The position numbers were made by a program, and so were the translations under genes. A model generated the notes under the pieces. The model did no database searches. It saw only the letters and a program-made list of their open reading frames with translations, and was not told the DNA's origin. Below are positions 30,791 through 64,000 of a DNA stretch of 64,000 nucleotides, piece after piece. Each line of letters begins with the position of its first letter. The first letter of the stretch is position 1. This stretch comes from Kineosporia sp. R_H_3 (lineage in GTDB: Bacteria > Actinomycetota > Actinomycetes > Actinomycetales > Kineosporiaceae): assembly GCF_002198675.1 (NCBI RefSeq), contig NZ_MWLL01000178.1, positions 62,001 to 126,000 of the forward strand, read 5' to 3'.

Positions 30791-31658
30791 CGTCGTCCAG
30801 CGCGAGGTTCAGCCGGAGGACGTCGACCGTGGGCTCCCCGAGGAACCCCAGGGCGCGAGGGCGCGTGTTCGCGTCGACGAGCGTCAGCACCTGGTCGACC
30901 GTGAGCCCGCGGGCGGTCGCGACCCGTGCCGCCTGAAGCCGGGCGAAGGCGACGCTGATCCCCGGGTCGAGGCCGCTCGCGCTCGCGGTGACGGCGTCGG
31001 CCGGCACGGCCGGGGACGCCGGCGCGTCTCCCCGGACGGGGGTGACCACCGCCCCCGCGTAGTCGGCGCCCGGCTCGGCGCACTCGACCCGGGCTCCCTC
31101 GTACGTCGCGACGAACGGCGTGGCGGGGCAGGCCTCGTTGAGGCTGACGGCCCGGGTGACCGGTCCGGTGAGACCGTCCCGGTGGAAGACGCCGAGCACC
31201 GCACCGACGCCCCCGGTGGTGCAGAAGGGACGGCGTCCGTCGACGCCCTCTCGGGTACCGATCTCGAGGCTGCGCGCGCAGACCCGGGTGAGCAGGCTCT
31301 GCGTGCCGGTGTCCCCGGCGACGGCGGGGTCGGGCAGGGAGTCGACGACGCTCTCCGGACCGAGGTTGGACGCGCCCGACGCGAGCGGGTCGTAGCCGTC
31401 CCCCGCCGCGGACGGTCGGGACTGGAAGTACCGCGGCAGCGCGGCGCCGTCCGCGTCGGTGAACGACTGCCCGACGAGGGCGCTGCCGACCGTGCGGCCG
31501 TCGTGCGTGAGGAGGCTGCCGCCGGCCCGGTCGCGCAGGCCCGGGACCTGCGCGAGGAGCGTGACGAGCAACGGGTAGGCGACCCCGAGGAGCAGGGTCA
31601 GGACGAGCAGGGCCCGCAGTGCTGCGGAGTACTGGGCGATCCAGGGGACGCGACGCAT
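30777..31658 (-). CDS. kdpC: KdpC, potassium-transporting ATPase subunit C, enlarged
   Basis: The N-terminal membrane helix (about 14-36) and family blocks are present (LVGQSFTDADGAALPRYFQSRPSA, NLGPES; DPGISVAFARLQAARVATARGL; VLRLNLALDD at the end). At 293 residues it is about 100 longer than E. coli KdpC. The extra part (about 103-218) lies outside the membrane and carries four Cys (127, 146, 177, 193). KdpC helps the KdpFABC complex bind K+ or ATP tightly. It lies 20 bases after kdpB. Confidence 0.93.
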   Translation of the reverse strand: MRRVPWIAQYSAALRALLVLTLLLGVAYPLLVTLLAQVPGLRDRAGGSLLTHDGRTVGSALVGQSFTDADGAALPRYFQSRPSAAGDGYDPLASGASNLGPESVVDSLPDPAVAGDTGTQSLLTRVCARSLEIGTREGVDGRRPFCTTGGVGAVLGVFHRDGLTGPVTRAVSLNEACPATPFVATYEGARVECAEPGADYAGAVVTPVRGDAPASPAVPADAVTASASGLDPGISVAFARLQAARVATARGLTVDQVLTLVDANTRPRALGFLGEPTVDVLRLNLALDDATRR

Positions 31659-31678
31659 CAGGAGATCCTCACGGGGGC

Positions 31679-33916
31679 TCAGGAGAGCCCGGGGACGAGG
31701 GCGACGAGGAGGTCGATGACCTTGATGCCGACGAACGGGGCGACGACGCCGCCGAGCCCGTAGACGAACAGGTTGCGGCGCAACAGGTCGGCGGCGCTGC
31801 TCGGGGTGTACCGGACGCCGCGCAGGGCGAGCGGGATGAGCGCGACGATGACGAGCGCGTTGAAGACGACGGCGGACAGGATCGCCGTCGTCGGGCTGTG
31901 GAGCCGCATGACGTTGAGCGTGTCCAGGCCGGGGTAGAGGCCGGCGAACATCGCGGGGATGATCGCGAAGTACTTCGCGACGTCGTTCGCGATGGAGAAC
32001 GTCGTCAGGGCACCGCGGGTGATGAGCAGCTGCTTGCCGATCTCGACGATCTCGATGAGCTTGGTCGGGTCGGAGTCGAGGTCGACCATGTTCCCGGCCT
32101 CCTTGGCGGCCGAGGTCCCGGTGTTCATCGCGACCCCGACGTCCGCCTGGGCGAGCGCGGGTGCGTCGTTGGTGCCGTCACCGGTCATCGCGACGAGCCG
32201 GCCGCCGGCCTGCTCCTTCGCGATGAGCGCGAGCTTGTCCTCCGGGGTGGCCTCGGCGAGGAAGTCGTCGACGCCCGCCTCCGCGGCGATCGCCTTGGCG
32301 GTCAACGGGTTGTCACCGGTGATCATCACGGTGCGGATGCCCATCCGGCGCATCTCGTCGAAGCGTTCCCGCAGGCCGTCCTTGACGACGTCCTTGAGGT
32401 GGACGACGCCGAGCGCCCGCGCCGGCCGGCCCGCTCGCTGCTCGGCGACGACGAGCGGCGTCCCGCCCGCTGCGCTGACGGCATCCACCGCGGCCTCGAG
32501 ACCGCGCTCGGAGTCCGTCTCTGCCGACGTGCTCGTGACCCCCGAGGTGGCGTTCTGCTCGCGGACCCAGGCGATCACGGCCGCGGCGGCGCCCTTGCGG
32601 ATCCGACGGACGGCGCCGTCCGGGTCGTCGTGCAGGTCGACGCCCGACATCCGGGTCTGGGCGGTGAACGGCACCCAGACGGCCCCGCGGAGCTCGCCCT
32701 GATGACGCTCGCGCAGCCCGTGCGCCTGCTTGACGTGGACGACGATCGAGCGGCCCTCGGGGGTCTCGTCGGCGAGGCTCGAGAGCTGGGCGGCGTCGGC
32801 GAGGTCGGCCGGGTCGACGCCCGGCGCGGGCAGCAGCTCGCTCGCCTGCCGGTTGCCGAGGGTGATCGTGCCCGTCTTGTCGAGCAGCAGGGTGTTCACG
32901 TCCCCGGCCGCCTCGACGGCGCGTCCGGACATCGCCAGGACGTTGCGCTGGACGAGGCGGTCCATGCCCGCGATCCCGATCGCCGAGAGCAGCGCCCCGA
33001 TGGTCGTCGGGATCAGGCAGACGAGCAGGGCGACGAGGACGACGCCGGTGACGCCGTCGGCGTCCAGCGCCAGGGTGTCCGGGGCCGCGGTCTGCTGCGC
33101 CTTGGCGTAGACGGCCAGCGGCTGGAGCGTCGCGACGGCGAGCAGGAAGATCACCGTGAGGGCCGCGAGAAGGATGTTCAGCGCGATCTCGTTCGGCGTC
33201 TTCTGCCGGTCCGCGCCCTCGACGAGGGCGATCATCCGGTCCAGGAAGCTCTCCCCGGGGCGCTGCGTGACGCGGACGACGATCCGGTCGGACAGGACGC
33301 TCGTGCCGCCGGTCACGGCGCTGCGGTCGCCGCCGGACTCGCGGATCACGGGCGCGGACTCGCCGGTGATGGCCGACTCGTCGACGCTCGCGATGCCCTC
33401 GACGACGTCGCCGTCGCCGGGGATCACCTGGCCCGCCTCGACGACGACGACGTCGCCGGGCTGCAGCGCGGCCGCCGGCACCTGCTCCTCCTCGAGCGTG
33501 TCCGCGGAGGCGCCCGGCGACCACCCGATCAGCCGGCGCGCGGTCGCGTCCTGCTTGGCCCGGCGCAGCGAGTCCGCCTGGGCCTTGCCGCGCCCCTCGG
33601 CGACGGCCTCGGCGAGGTTGGCGAAGACCACGGTGGCCCACAGCCAGGCCGTGACGACCCAGGCGAAGGCCGACGGGTGCAGGACGGCGAGCACCGTCGT
33701 CCAGACCGAGCCGACCTCGACGATGAGCATCACCGGGTTGTGCCACAGGATGCGCGGGTCGAGCTTGCGCAGGGCGTCGGGCAGCGAGGTCCACAGGAGC
33801 TTCGGGTCGAGCAGCCCGCCGCCGACGCGGCGGTGGGCCGTGCCGGCCGGGTCGGAGGGTTCCGGGGTGCCGCCCGGGCGGGCGTCGGCGGGGTCGGTGA
33901 GGACGGGGGTGGTCAT
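31679..33916 (-). CDS. kdpB: KdpB, P-type ATPase subunit of the K+ transporter
   Basis: The product has 745 residues. The phosphorylation motif [10 protein letters not shown], the TGES actuator loop ([10 protein letters not shown]), the hinge [21 protein letters not shown] and the KdpB-specific [18 protein letters not shown] are all present. It hydrolyses ATP to drive high-affinity K+ uptake through KdpA. The N-terminal 35 residues are a hydrophilic extension. The ATG overlaps the kdpA stop. Confidence 0.97.
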
Positions 33917-59083: not shown

Positions 59084-62000
59084 TCAGGCCACTGCGGCCG
59101 CGAAACCGGCGTAGAGATCGCCTGGCAGCCGGTGCCGCAACCTCCACGTCACGGCCATCGGACGGCTCCCCCGATGGCTGACGTAGTCACACGGCCCGAG
59201 GAACCAGAACGCGGGATCCGTGTCGTGCGACCTCACGAAGAGCTGGACCGACGAGCCCTCAGACCGATGGCTCCTGTATCGCCGCCCCGTGGGGCTGTCG
59301 TCAGACGTCGTCGACTGGCTCTCCCAGTGGAACAGCTCGGGGGAGATGGCGTAGTCCTGGTAGCGGGTGGTCGGCGAGAAGCCCCCGCCCGACTTGTCGA
59401 GCGTCACGACGAACACATCCGTCCTCAGCTCGGGAATCCATCGGACCCCTTCTCGCCACGTCGGGGTGAGCGCCTGGTCGCGTCGGCCGGCGCCGAGCCC
59501 TGCCAGGATCTCCTGGCGCGAGTAGCGCGCGTGGATCTGCAGCGGCGAATCAGCGTCCACGGCTGCCTGGACATGGTCGACGCGATCCCGGAGGACGGCC
59601 ATCAGAGCCTGCAGCTCGGCGATGGGTCTTGGGTGCTGATGCAACAGGTCCCACGCTGCCTCCAGCCGCACATCGGATGGGAGGCCCAGCTGACTCATGA
59701 GAGTGGTCGTCAACATCCGGGCCAGTCTGCGATCACGTTCGGTCCCCCGGCCGACGCGCTCTGCCCCGAGTGCGAGAAGTTCCCGGTAACCCACCAGGCG
59801 GACGCTGTCGTCGACGTGGCCCAGTCGCGCGACGCCGCGCAACAACGCGACATCATGCGGCCCGGGCGCGGGCACGGGAAGGCCGGCGGCCTCACGCAGC
59901 GCTGTCCATGAACGGCCGCCGCGGTAGACGTCGTCGAGGTCGAGCCCGGACTCGGCAAGGAACTCCGGAAGATCGACGTCCGGGCGCGTGCGGGACATCG
60001 CGCGAAGCTCCGCGACTTTCTCGGGCCATCTCGACGGGATTGCTTCGCGAATGCTGCGCAAGACCCGTTCCTGCGCGACATGGTCCAGCCGGAGCGAGCA
60101 TCCGGCCGGCAGGAAGGGGAAGCCCGCCGTCACCTGCCGCTCCAGGTCTTGCCGGCTTCCGCCGAGCAGGGCACCGAATCGACGGTCGAACCGGAACTCC
60201 TTGCGGTGGTTGGCCACGAAGTCGAGGACGGTGCAGATGTGCTTGCTCGGCGATCGCCGCAACCCTCGACCGAGCTGCTGGAGGAAGAGAACCGGGCTGT
60301 CCGTGGGCCTGAGGAACAGCACGGTGTCAACGGCCGGGATGTCGAGACCTTCGTTGAACAGGTCGACGGAGAACACTGCACGAACCTGGCCGGCCTCCAA
60401 CGCCGAGAGTGCTGCTCGCCGCTCGGCCTCGGGCGTCTTGCCGGTGACGGCGACCGCCGCAAACCCGGCTTTCGAGAAGTGCTCCGCCATGAACTCTGCA
60501 TGCGCGACGCTGACGCAGAAGCCGAGGACGCGCGCGGACGACAGGTCGACGTGGCTCATCACTTCGTTCACGACCCGCCGCGCCCAGGCGTCGTCCGAGG
60601 TGAAGATGTTCGTCAGGGCGTCCACGTCGTAGCCTCGTCCGCGCTGCCACGGCACCGTCGTGAGGTCGGTCTCGTCGGCGATGCCGTAGTACGCGAACGG
60701 CGTCAGGTAGTGCTGATCGATCGCGTCCCAGAGTCGTAGCTCGGCGGCGATGCGGCCACCGAACCATTCCAGGATGGGCTCACCGTCGCTGCGTTCAGGG
60801 GTCGCGGTGAGACCGACCAGCTCTCGCGGCTCGACCCGCGCCAAGAGCCTCCTGTAGGTCGCCGCGGCGGCGTGGTGGAACTCGTCGATGATGACCACGT
60901 CGAAGTGCTGCGGGTCCAGGTGCGCCAGGCCGTTCGCGTCGAGACTCTGGATCGACGCGAACACGTGGTCGAAGGCAGCCGGCCGGCGCCCTCCGACCCA
61001 CAGTTCACCGAAACTGCCCTCACGCAGGACGTGCCGGAAGGTCGCCAGGCTCTGTTCGAGGATCTCCTGGCGGTGCGCGATGAACAGGAGCCGGGCCGAG
61101 GGAAGCTCTGCACGGAGGCGGGCGTAGTCCGCGGCCGCCATGACCGTCTTGCCCGTCCCTGTCGCCGCCACCAGCAGGTTCCGGTGGTAGCCGAGCCCAC
61201 GCGCCACTGCCAGCCGCTCCAGGAGGCGCTCTTGGAAGGGTCTCAGAGTGACCTCGACCGGGCTCAGGTAGGTGACGAGGCGCGGCACCGCCTGCCCCAG
61301 CTCCCGTTCGAAGGACTCGGGGTCGTAGTCGATGAAGCTGTCGCCCTGCCAGTAGGCCTCGAAGACGGCACCGACCTTGTCGATCACTTCGGGGTTGCGG
61401 GCGCCCGAGACCCTGACGTTCCACTCGAGTCCCGCCACCTGGGCGGAGTGCGTGAGGTTCGACGACCCGATGTACGCGGTCGAGAAGCCACTCTCGCGAT
61501 GGAACAGCCATGCCTTCGCATGCAATCGCGTCGTCGTGGTGTCGTAGGAGACCCGGACCTGCGCCCCCAGCTGAGTCAGCGCGTCGAGTGCTGCTTGCTC
61601 GGTCGATCCCGTGTACGTCGTGGTGAGCACTCGCAGCCTGCGTCCCCTGCTGCAGTGCCGCGCGAGGTCCTCCTCGAGCGAACGAATTCCGCTCCGCCGG
61701 ATGAACGCCATGACAAGGTCGATGCCGTCCGCGCCCTGGATCTCGGTCGCGAGTTGATGCCCGACGCTCGGCTCACCCGGCGAGTTCGTCAGGAGGGTCG
61801 TGTCCAGCAGCGGGATCATCGGCGAGGCGACCTGCTCGGGCGTTCCGTCAGGACGCCTCCGGAGGATGGCCCGCAAAACCCTGCCTGCGTCGTCCGGCCG
61901 CTCTGTCGAGACGCCCACGGCGGGGTACTCCTGGGCCAACCGATCGACGATCTCCCGTGCGACTGCGATAGCAGCCTGCGTGCGGCTCCCCTCGTCGAAG

Positions 62001-62173
62001 GAGGAGACGACCCGACCGACGACCTTGGACACCAAGAGGCTGATGCGGTCTGCAGCTTCCGCAGCACGCAGTGGCTGCGTACTGACCAGGTCTTCAGACA
62101 GCGACGCCAGACCTGCCGCAACCGCCTCCGTCACGAGAACCTCGAACAACCCTGGTTCCAGCGGTGCCGACAT
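59084..62173 (-). CDS. PLD nuclease-helicase-DUF3427 protein
   Basis: The product has 1029 residues. A phospholipase D-type nuclease site is at about 213-245 (RLHAKAWLFH with GSSNLTHSA); a DEAD-like helicase core follows, with Walker A ATGTGKT (337-343), DEFHHA (430-435), LTATPER and QQLGRGLRRS. The DUF3427 region makes up the last 350 residues. Proteins of this build are widespread, and some are suspected to act in phage defence or DNA repair. The gene stands alone, 200 bases from a tRNA-Arg fragment. No ribosome site is seen before the ATG. Confidence 0.88.
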   Translation of the reverse strand: MSAPLEPGLFEVLVTEAVAAGLASLSEDLVSTQPLRAAEAADRISLLVSKVVGRVVSSFDEGSRTQAAIAVAREIVDRLAQEYPAVGVSTERPDDAGRVLRAILRRRPDGTPEQVASPMIPLLDTTLLTNSPGEPSVGHQLATEIQGADGIDLVMAFIRRSGIRSLEEDLARHCSRGRRLRVLTTTYTGSTEQAALDALTQLGAQVRVSYDTTTTRLHAKAWLFHRESGFSTAYIGSSNLTHSAQVAGLEWNVRVSGARNPEVIDKVGAVFEAYWQGDSFIDYDPESFERELGQAVPRLVTYLSPVEVTLRPFQERLLERLAVARGLGYHRNLLVAATGTGKTVMAAADYARLRAELPSARLLFIAHRQEILEQSLATFRHVLREGSFGELWVGGRRPAAFDHVFASIQSLDANGLAHLDPQHFDVVIIDEFHHAAAATYRRLLARVEPRELVGLTATPERSDGEPILEWFGGRIAAELRLWDAIDQHYLTPFAYYGIADETDLTTVPWQRGRGYDVDALTNIFTSDDAWARRVVNEVMSHVDLSSARVLGFCVSVAHAEFMAEHFSKAGFAAVAVTGKTPEAERRAALSALEAGQVRAVFSVDLFNEGLDIPAVDTVLFLRPTDSPVLFLQQLGRGLRRSPSKHICTVLDFVANHRKEFRFDRRFGALLGGSRQDLERQVTAGFPFLPAGCSLRLDHVAQERVLRSIREAIPSRWPEKVAELRAMSRTRPDVDLPEFLAESGLDLDDVYRGGRSWTALREAAGLPVPAPGPHDVALLRGVARLGHVDDSVRLVGYRELLALGAERVGRGTERDRRLARMLTTTLMSQLGLPSDVRLEAAWDLLHQHPRPIAELQALMAVLRDRVDHVQAAVDADSPLQIHARYSRQEILAGLGAGRRDQALTPTWREGVRWIPELRTDVFVVTLDKSGGGFSPTTRYQDYAISPELFHWESQSTTSDDSPTGRRYRSHRSEGSSVQLFVRSHDTDPAFWFLGPCDYVSHRGSRPMAVTWRLRHRLPGDLYAGFAAAVA

Positions 62174-62312
62174 GCCAGTTGAGTATGGCCTCAGCGGCCC
62201 TCCGAGCGCCCAGAACCCGCCGCGCAAGCGCCGAAGGCTTCCCGGCAGCGGCGGGATCAGCCATGGAGGCGTCGGTGTTGGGACGACCCCGGCCCAGACC
62301 CGGGAACCAAAT

Positions 62313-62348
62313 CGGCCTCCGTCCCACGTTTCCGCAGGTCGGAGGCCG
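62313..62348 (-). terminator. Terminator downstream of the tRNA-Arg fragment
   Basis: CGGCCTCCG (62313-62321) and CGGAGGCCG (62340-62348) form a perfect 9-bp stem with an 18-base loop. On the minus strand it lies 23 bases beyond the 3' end of the tRNA-Arg fragment and is followed by GATTTGG, the usual spot for the tRNA transcript's terminator. Confidence 0.55.
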
Positions 62349-62370
62349 TTTCGGTCGCTGTCTCAACGAG

Positions 62371-62412
62371 TGCGCCCGAAGGGATTCGAACCCCTAACCT
62401 TCTGATCCGTAG
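62371..62412 (-). other. 3' fragment of tRNA-Arg(ACG), putative att site
   Basis: Read on the minus strand, the 42 bases comprise anticodon loop CTACGGA (anticodon ACG), 3' anticodon stem TCAGA, variable AGGTT, T-arm AGGGG-TTCGAAT-CCCTT, acceptor strand CGGGCGC and discriminator A. The matching 5' half is absent: the bases beyond the loop do not pair. A 3' tRNA fragment is what phage or ICE integration into a tRNA gene leaves at the far junction. By that logic the intact tRNA-Arg and the element lie to the right. Confidence 0.8.
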
Positions 62413-63354
62413 GCCGACTTTGACTCGTCGTCGGATCTGTCGCTGACCTGCAGCGATGACGTCCCAGCCGGTCGAGCATGCTCGACTTGGGGGCGCATTT
62501 GGGGCAGCCGCCGGTCAGGTCGTCCAGGTCGAGGAATCGGCGCGCCACGTCGCGACGGCGCCGAGGTGGGCGCTCAGCGCCGGATCGGAGAAGCGGGCCA
62601 TGCCGTGGACCACGCCGCGAACGAACCAGGAGCTTGGCGGCATCCGGTCCGAGGCAGCGTCGGTACGAATCGAAGACGGTCCATCGGGTGATGCCGTAGT
62701 TGTGGAGGACGTCGCACAGCGGCCGCAGATCGACCCCCCGGTGGTGGGACGTCGCGGCCAGGGCGGTGGGGGGACGCCGTGAGTACGGGTCAGCCCCGCA
62801 ACGGTCGTACACGGTGACTGATCGTGTTTCGGCGACACCGCCGCACGCGGGATCCCGCTCGGGGGCCTAGCCGGCCGCCGGCCACGAGGCGGGTCTGGAT
62901 CCAGACGTCGGCGCCGTCGCGGACCCGGCTGTTTCCGGCGCCGAGTTGGTCGGCGGCGCCGAACTTCTCGGCCAGTACGACGGGCATCGGCATCGGTACC
63001 CCTGGACGCGGACCGATGGCTGGCGCGGCAGCAGCGTCGGGTTGCCCACGTTGACCGGCGGCGGCGCGACCGCCAGCAGCATCCCGCTCTTGAGCAGAAG
63101 CAGCTCGGCGTGATCGCTCAATGCCGTCGTACGAGAAGGAGCTTCGGGACGTGCATCACCACACGGTCTGGGTGGCCAGGGCGCCAACACGGCGCTCGAG
63201 GTCTGCCTCCGCCGCTGCCCAGCGCGCCAGCCCTGCGCTCTCACCCTCGGCATCGACCTGCCCGAGGCGCACCGACGCGTCTAGCTACCACATCATCGCG
63301 ACCCGCCGGGTACTACAGCTTGTAATACGTCAGACGCCATGGAATCCTCTAGCC
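62413..63354. mobile_element. End of a putative integrated element, decayed coding region
   Basis: No intact gene is supported. On the minus strand, coding-like pieces appear in different frames: LRPLCDVLHNYGITRWTVF (near 62700) and FLDLDDLTGGCPKCAPKSS (near 62500), and near 62950-63060 a piece PVVLAEKFGAADQLGAGNS joined to KSGMLLAVAPPPVNVGNPT only across a frameshift. This looks like one or two broken genes. Composition is somewhat less biased than in the neighbouring chromosome. Assignment to an integrated element rests on the tRNA fragment at its left edge. Confidence 0.4.
63314..63324. promoter_or_regulatory. Palindrome TACAGCTTGTA upstream of the basic membrane protein
   Basis: TACAGCTTGTA has 4-bp inverted arms (TACA/TGTA) around a 3-base centre, in an AT-rich patch 31 bases before the ATG. 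It might be an operator or part of the promoter of the next gene. A single copy, so weak evidence. Confidence 0.3.
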
Positions 63355-63705
63355 ATGACGAACGCCACCGTGGTAGCCGCCGCGCGCGAGCTCACCCACC
63401 ACATCCCCGCCAACCTCCCGGTCTGGGCGACCGCCGGAACCGTCGCGATCATGGCGCTCCTCGAGCTTGTGCTGTGGTACTGGTTCCTCGGCCGCATGCT
63501 CGCGAAGGTCCCGAGCGCCACCCTCTCCGAGGTCGCCCAGGTCATCGACGCCTCCAACCGGCGCAAGCCGACCACGTCGGCGACCGCGACCGAGCAGGGA
63601 AAGCCCGACGAGATGCCGCCCAGGCAGAAGGAGGCGGAGCAGGGCGGCCACCGCAAGAAGAAGTACAAGAAGGGCAAGAAGAGGCCGCACAAGATCAAGC
63701 GGTAG
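63355..63705 (+). CDS. Small membrane protein with strongly basic C-terminal tail
   Basis: The product has 116 residues. One membrane helix lies at about 25-47 (VAIMALLELVLWYWFL), then a linker, and the last 30 residues are Lys/Arg-rich (HRKKKYKKGKKRPHKIKR). I do not recognise the family; the tail suggests nucleic-acid or membrane-lipid contact. The ATG at 63355 is chosen, since the upstream in-frame codons look non-coding. A strong terminator follows. It probably belongs to the integrated element. Confidence 0.65.
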   Translation: MTNATVVAAARELTHHIPANLPVWATAGTVAIMALLELVLWYWFLGRMLAKVPSATLSEVAQVIDASNRRKPTTSATATEQGKPDEMPPRQKEAEQGGHRKKKYKKGKKRPHKIKR

Positions 63706-63745
63706 GCACCTACGGCACAACCGAACAAGACCCTTAGCCGCGAGC

Positions 63746-63774
63746 AGGGCCCGGGCCTCATAGGCCCGGGCCCT
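63746..63774 (+). terminator. Strong hairpin terminator after the basic membrane protein
   Basis: AGGGCCCGGGCCT, loop CAT, AGGCCCGGGCCCT gives a perfect 13-bp stem with a 3-base loop, 41 bases after the stop. It is followed by CGTCATTCC rather than a T-run. Stems of this type are common in actinophage and actinobacterial elements. Confidence 0.85.
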
Positions 63775-63874
63775 CGTCATTCCATCGCGACCTAAGGCCC
63801 GGCACGCGGGGCTGACGACCGAAACACCTCACGACGCGCTGAACGTCGCGTGCTCGGCGTGAGGGGTCGTGACG

Positions 63875-64000
63875 GTGGCGTTCCGGGAGGTCGATGTGAT
63901 CGAGGTCCGTGAGGTCCTGCGGGGCTGGCTCGACGGTGGCGGGCTGCGCACTGTCGCCGAGCGCGCGGGGGTGGACCGCAAGACCGCCCGCCGGCACGTC
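63875..64000 (+). CDS. N-terminus of an IS21-like (IstA-type) transposase, cut by the window end
   Basis: The 42 visible residues (MAFREVDVIEVREVLRGWL, then GLRTVAERAGVDRKTARRHV) form the helix-turn-helix N-terminus typical of IS21-family-like transposases of actinomycetes. The GTG at 63875 was chosen; another GTG two codons earlier is possible. The partner IstB-like gene would lie to the right. A 7-bp inverted repeat (CCTCACG 63827-63833, CGTGAGG 63858-63864) precedes it. Confidence 0.65.
   Translation, partial: MAFREVDVIEVREVLRGWLDGGGLRTVAERAGVDRKTARRHV

Follow-up and report, generated by a model that had tools for sequence, protein, structure and literature searches.

The question raised by this locus is how the 3' half of a tRNA-Arg(ACG) gene came to stand alone in the chromosome of Kineosporia sp. 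R_H_3. The stretch of DNA that we analyzed (the window; 64,000 nucleotides) corresponds to positions 62001-126000 of contig C88 (NZ_MWLL01000178.1), and the half gene lies at 62371-62412 of the window, close to its right end.

Orphan and intact copies of the tRNA 3' half

The orphan half, CTACGGATCAGAAGGTTAGGGGTTCGAATCCCTTCGGGCGCA, is read on the minus strand from 62412 to 62371 and comprises tRNA nucleotides 32-73, that is, from the anticodon loop (anticodon ACG) to the discriminator; the 5' half is absent. This bears out a previous sequence-only reading, which had recognized only the bases from the anticodon loop to the discriminator on this strand. ARAGORN found no complete tRNA in the window, and a search of Rfam at a permissive threshold gave no more at the orphan than a tmRNA T-arm match, whose 19.6 bits fall below the gathering score of 70. 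When a 41-mer core was searched for throughout the 7.26-Mb genome, with up to three mismatches allowed, it occurred in exactly two places, both perfect, namely (i) the orphan and (ii) an intact tRNA-Arg(ACG) on the minus strand of contig C153 (22721-22794), which is thus the sole other copy; a reversed control pattern of the 41-mer had no match in the same genome. Base-by-base extension of this identity defined a 59-bp direct repeat (the att core), located at 62354-62412 on the minus strand of the window and identical to C153:22705-22763, with the identity running 17 bp past the discriminator. An intact tRNA-Arg with a matching core had been predicted to lie beyond an element, and one was indeed found in the predicted orientation, but the shared repeat is 59 bp long rather than the 42 bp expected. 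We consider it very probable that the orphan is the displaced original 3' end of the tRNA gene, situated at a chromosome-element junction of the attR type.

Downstream of the orphan, a hairpin resembling the host tRNA transcription terminator occupies 62306-62355 on the minus strand. The fold is strong (-40.5 kcal/mol; z = -4.7), in line with the terminator that had been noted after the half gene, though no U-run follows it. Across 12 aligned copies, drawn from several genomes, the hairpin is kept, and two of its pairs show changes on both sides. The intact copy on C153 is followed by a similar hairpin of different sequence (-51.4 kcal/mol). Moreover, the orphan-side terminator is of the same type in the window's genome (G000), in its sister species Kineosporia sp. 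A_224 (G001), and in G002, whereas the intact-side terminators differ between G000 and G002. A host-type terminator at the orphan together with a different one at the intact copy, as in G000 and G002, would be expected if each element had brought in both a tRNA 3' half and a terminator of its own.

Two flanks of a single insertion site

C88 ends at 130171, which places the intact tRNA on a different contig. In A_224, both copies reside on one contig (NZ_MWLN01000231.1, at 19784 and 31847), with the orphan on the left and the intact tRNA on the right, in the same orientation and 12.06 kb apart. The sequence left of the window's orphan is 94.7% identical to that left of the A_224 orphan over 5.6 kb, and the sequence right of the intact tRNA on C153 is 94.5% identical to its A_224 counterpart over 11.9 kb, whereas the interior between the copies differs, the sister genome having another element here. 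Because both outer flanks match a single A_224 contig, this synteny shows C88 and C153, as judged from aligned sequence, to bracket one occupied insertion site, and the element extends rightwards from 62413, the direction proposed in the sequence-only reading.

Directly outside the element, the left chromosomal flank contains a PLD/ResIII helicase/DUF3427 gene (59084-62227, minus strand; Pfam and PADLOC), in the flank that is 94.7% identical in A_224. Its product gave a strong PADLOC mREase_IV match (845 bits). This flank is absent in G002, where the left flank differs beyond about 95 bp. In the right flank, two genes that we named by reading the sequence as GTP-type phosphoenolpyruvate carboxykinase-like (C153:23347-25242 and 31158-32981) lie 6 kb apart and encode proteins that are ~76% identical; the pair is also found in A_224.

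The first 1.6 kb of the element interior lies within the window (62413-64000), and the element continues to C88:130171 and then through C153:1-22704. The last 60 bases of C88 (130112-130171) are an exact repeat of C88:128544-128603, and the first 33 bases of C153 are an exact repeat of C88:129849-129881, both of which fall in the same 1.34-kb stretch of the element; neither repeat occurs elsewhere in the genome at E <= 0.001. The end of C88 does not exactly overlap the start of C153, but the simplest reading of these repeats is that a tandem repeat of about 1.3 kb broke the assembly and that C153 would directly follow C88. If the contigs are joined in this way, the element would measure 5759 + 1245 + 22704 bp, or about 29.7 kb; no contig spans it whole, and we infer about 1.2 kb of its sequence.

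These contig-end repeats also bear on whether more than one element is present. Accretion at tRNA-Arg genes is documented: several AICEs have accreted in one tRNA-Arg gene in Streptomyces (PMC9513070), S. avermitilis provides a further case, AICEs of Frankia occur in tandem, and tandem elements in tRNA-Arg genes are described (PMC3218068). Elements might likewise be stacked at the tRNA here, the orphan of the window having been left by an older element beside the one on C153, and the unusual order of integrase and cargo on C153 would fit such an arrangement. The genome holds just two copies of the core, however, 28 kb of element sequence contains no third T-arm signature, and the contig-end repeats tie C88 to C153, all of which make stacking improbable.

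Orphan and intact copies were both found in seven of the 13 genomes of the family (G000, G001, G002, G005, G009, G010, and G012), i.e., in 6 of 12 besides the window's own; in G005, they are on separate contigs. In each of these seven genomes, the orphan's identity with the tRNA ends at or just past the anticodon. Empty sites with a single tRNA exist as well, since G011 matches both flanks of the occupied G009 site and G007 matches both flanks of the occupied G012 site. All three genomes of the window's genus are occupied, and both empty sites are outside the genus. As is characteristic of a tRNA-gene integrative element, then, the repeat is the 3' part of a tRNA with one copy completing an intact gene, a single site is bracketed, and relatives have the site empty. 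Decay of a tRNA gene copy or its accidental duplication, without any integrative element, would account for there being only half a gene accompanied by its terminator. Such an origin was contradicted already by the synteny with the sister genome, and it is made extremely improbable by the break at the anticodon that is shared by every orphan examined in relatives, by the syntenic flanks, by the mobile genes between the copies in relatives, and by the empty sites.

The orphan is thus almost certainly one end of an integrative genomic island that entered tRNA-Arg(ACG) in its 3' part. We propose that a circular element carried its own tRNA 3' half and terminator hairpin, and that a tyrosine recombinase would have crossed this circle with the tRNA gene of the chromosome. 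The half gene brought in by the element would then have restored a working tRNA (the one on C153), while the original 3' half, together with its terminator, would have ended up at the opposite end of the element, in the window.

Integrase and cargo of the element

An integrase had been expected to the right of the orphan, and the element does encode a tyrosine recombinase (C153:4566-5675), the sole integrase found in it; the enzyme is, however, truncated at its N terminus and is not in the usual place beside attL, so that the expectation is borne out only loosely. It lacks about 100 N-terminal residues that its relatives have, in which at least 80 residues, and mostly 100 to 120 or more, precede the start of the alignment with the C153 protein (one contig-edge fragment excepted). 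An IS110 transposase is encoded just upstream of the truncated start. Furthermore, 17 kb separate the gene from the intact tRNA, and its C-terminal end points away from that tRNA, unlike in most relatives: a tRNA is near the C-terminal end of the integrase in 24 of 29 relatives, with the tRNA 3' end facing the integrase in 22 of these 24. Position, orientation, and truncation together rule out the C153 integrase as a canonical tRNA neighbor. Because the only integrase found lacks its N-terminal part, lies 17 kb from the intact tRNA, and has the wrong orientation, the element is probably defective, its present immobility being, like the recombination event itself, something that we infer. A complete integrase is typical of mobile elements, whereas a defective or trans-mobilised one can do without it.

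We also considered whether the C153 integrase itself made the insertion before insertion sequences disrupted and relocated its gene, which is a question within the island explanation rather than a rival to it. The prevalence of tRNA neighbors among its relatives, one of which (L045) adjoins a tRNA-Arg(ACG), and the IS110 transposase beside its start are consistent with this role. Its distance from the tRNA and its reversed orientation speak against it, as does the fact that tRNA-Arg(ACG) is also occupied by another integrase family (in G012, G010, and G005) and by the family of the A_224 integrase. We also looked for a third att copy next to the C153 integrase and found none. On balance, its agency is quite possible, although we lean somewhat against it, and the gene may be either a remnant of the inserting enzyme or a separate arrival.

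Among the cargo genes, MAD7 scored above its NCBIfam cut-off (440.7 versus 410; C153 part of the element), MAD6 fell just under its cut-off (449.7 versus 460, 2% below), and the MAD8 match was weak. The element therefore has homologs of both MAD6 and MAD7 of the methylation-associated defence system (MADS). Neither a methyltransferase nor MAD1-5 was found among the genes called in the element sequence examined, which differs from the complete eight-gene set and indicates a partial or variant MADS. These genes have an operon-like arrangement at C153:7721-19620 (locus L004), which encodes a HerA/DndH-like ATPase, MAD7, a MAD6 kinase with a NERD domain, and a UvrD-like helicase. Insertion-sequence genes are present in the element as well, and its C153 part also encodes a MoaA-like radical SAM protein and a HelD/HelR-type motor, the latter of which, an RNA polymerase motor-like protein (C153:20088-22592; L005:88-2592), is the element gene nearest the intact tRNA. 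The C88 part encodes an rve (integrase-core) transposase (C88:126178-126816) and a NikA-like protein (C88:129400-129786), both to the right of the window, and a DUF6082 protein. Pfam matches among the called genes of the element included no phage structural or packaging genes, which sets it apart from prophages.

The element resembles AICEs, which reside in tRNA 3' ends with repeats reaching past the tRNA, in that integration at a tRNA 3' end yields a complete tRNA gene on one side and an orphan 3' repeat on the other, and in its use of tRNA-Arg, a hotspot for AICEs (PMC9513070, PMC3218068). It differs from them in that its cargo consists of defence genes and in that no RepSA-type initiator, TraB/FtsK, or excisionase appeared among the Pfam matches of genes called in the element sequence examined.

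A shared tRNA site in the Kineosporiaceae

The elements of relatives at this tRNA vary in both cargo and integrase. The A_224 element carries Wadjet type II JetABCD (L010, 4915-13569), a DUF4143 ATPase, and, next to the tRNA, an integrase. In G001, G003, and G210, an integrase of this family directly adjoins the 3' end of the tRNA, the G003 enzyme being 62% identical to that of A_224. The G002 element (C417, L013) carries a related Wadjet type II JetABCD with 79% DNA identity to that of A_224, and no integrase was found among its called genes. A_224 and G002, the nearest relatives of the window's genome, are two species of its genus. G012 shows an AICE-like gene order with an integrase beside the tRNA, as named by reading the sequences. 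These observations raise the tentative idea, which we think unlikely to be correct, that integrase-poor defence islands at tRNA-Arg(ACG), such as the present one with its truncated integrase and that of G002, are moved in trans by AICEs or other elements sharing the attachment site in the Kineosporiaceae.

For E. coli, a map of the defence islands is available (PMC10121019). As in tRNA-anchored defence islands, related strains have different defence systems at a shared chromosomal position, which in the present case is tRNA-Arg(ACG) in hosts of the family Kineosporiaceae. The island junction in the window is a well-documented, ordinary kind of event, and the general understanding of such integration is unchanged. 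For this genome, the finding locates the boundary of an element that is not contained in any single contig and sets two contigs of the draft assembly side by side. For the family Kineosporiaceae, it shows that phage-defence cargo (MADS-like and Wadjet) and AICE-like elements have entered repeatedly at one tRNA gene.
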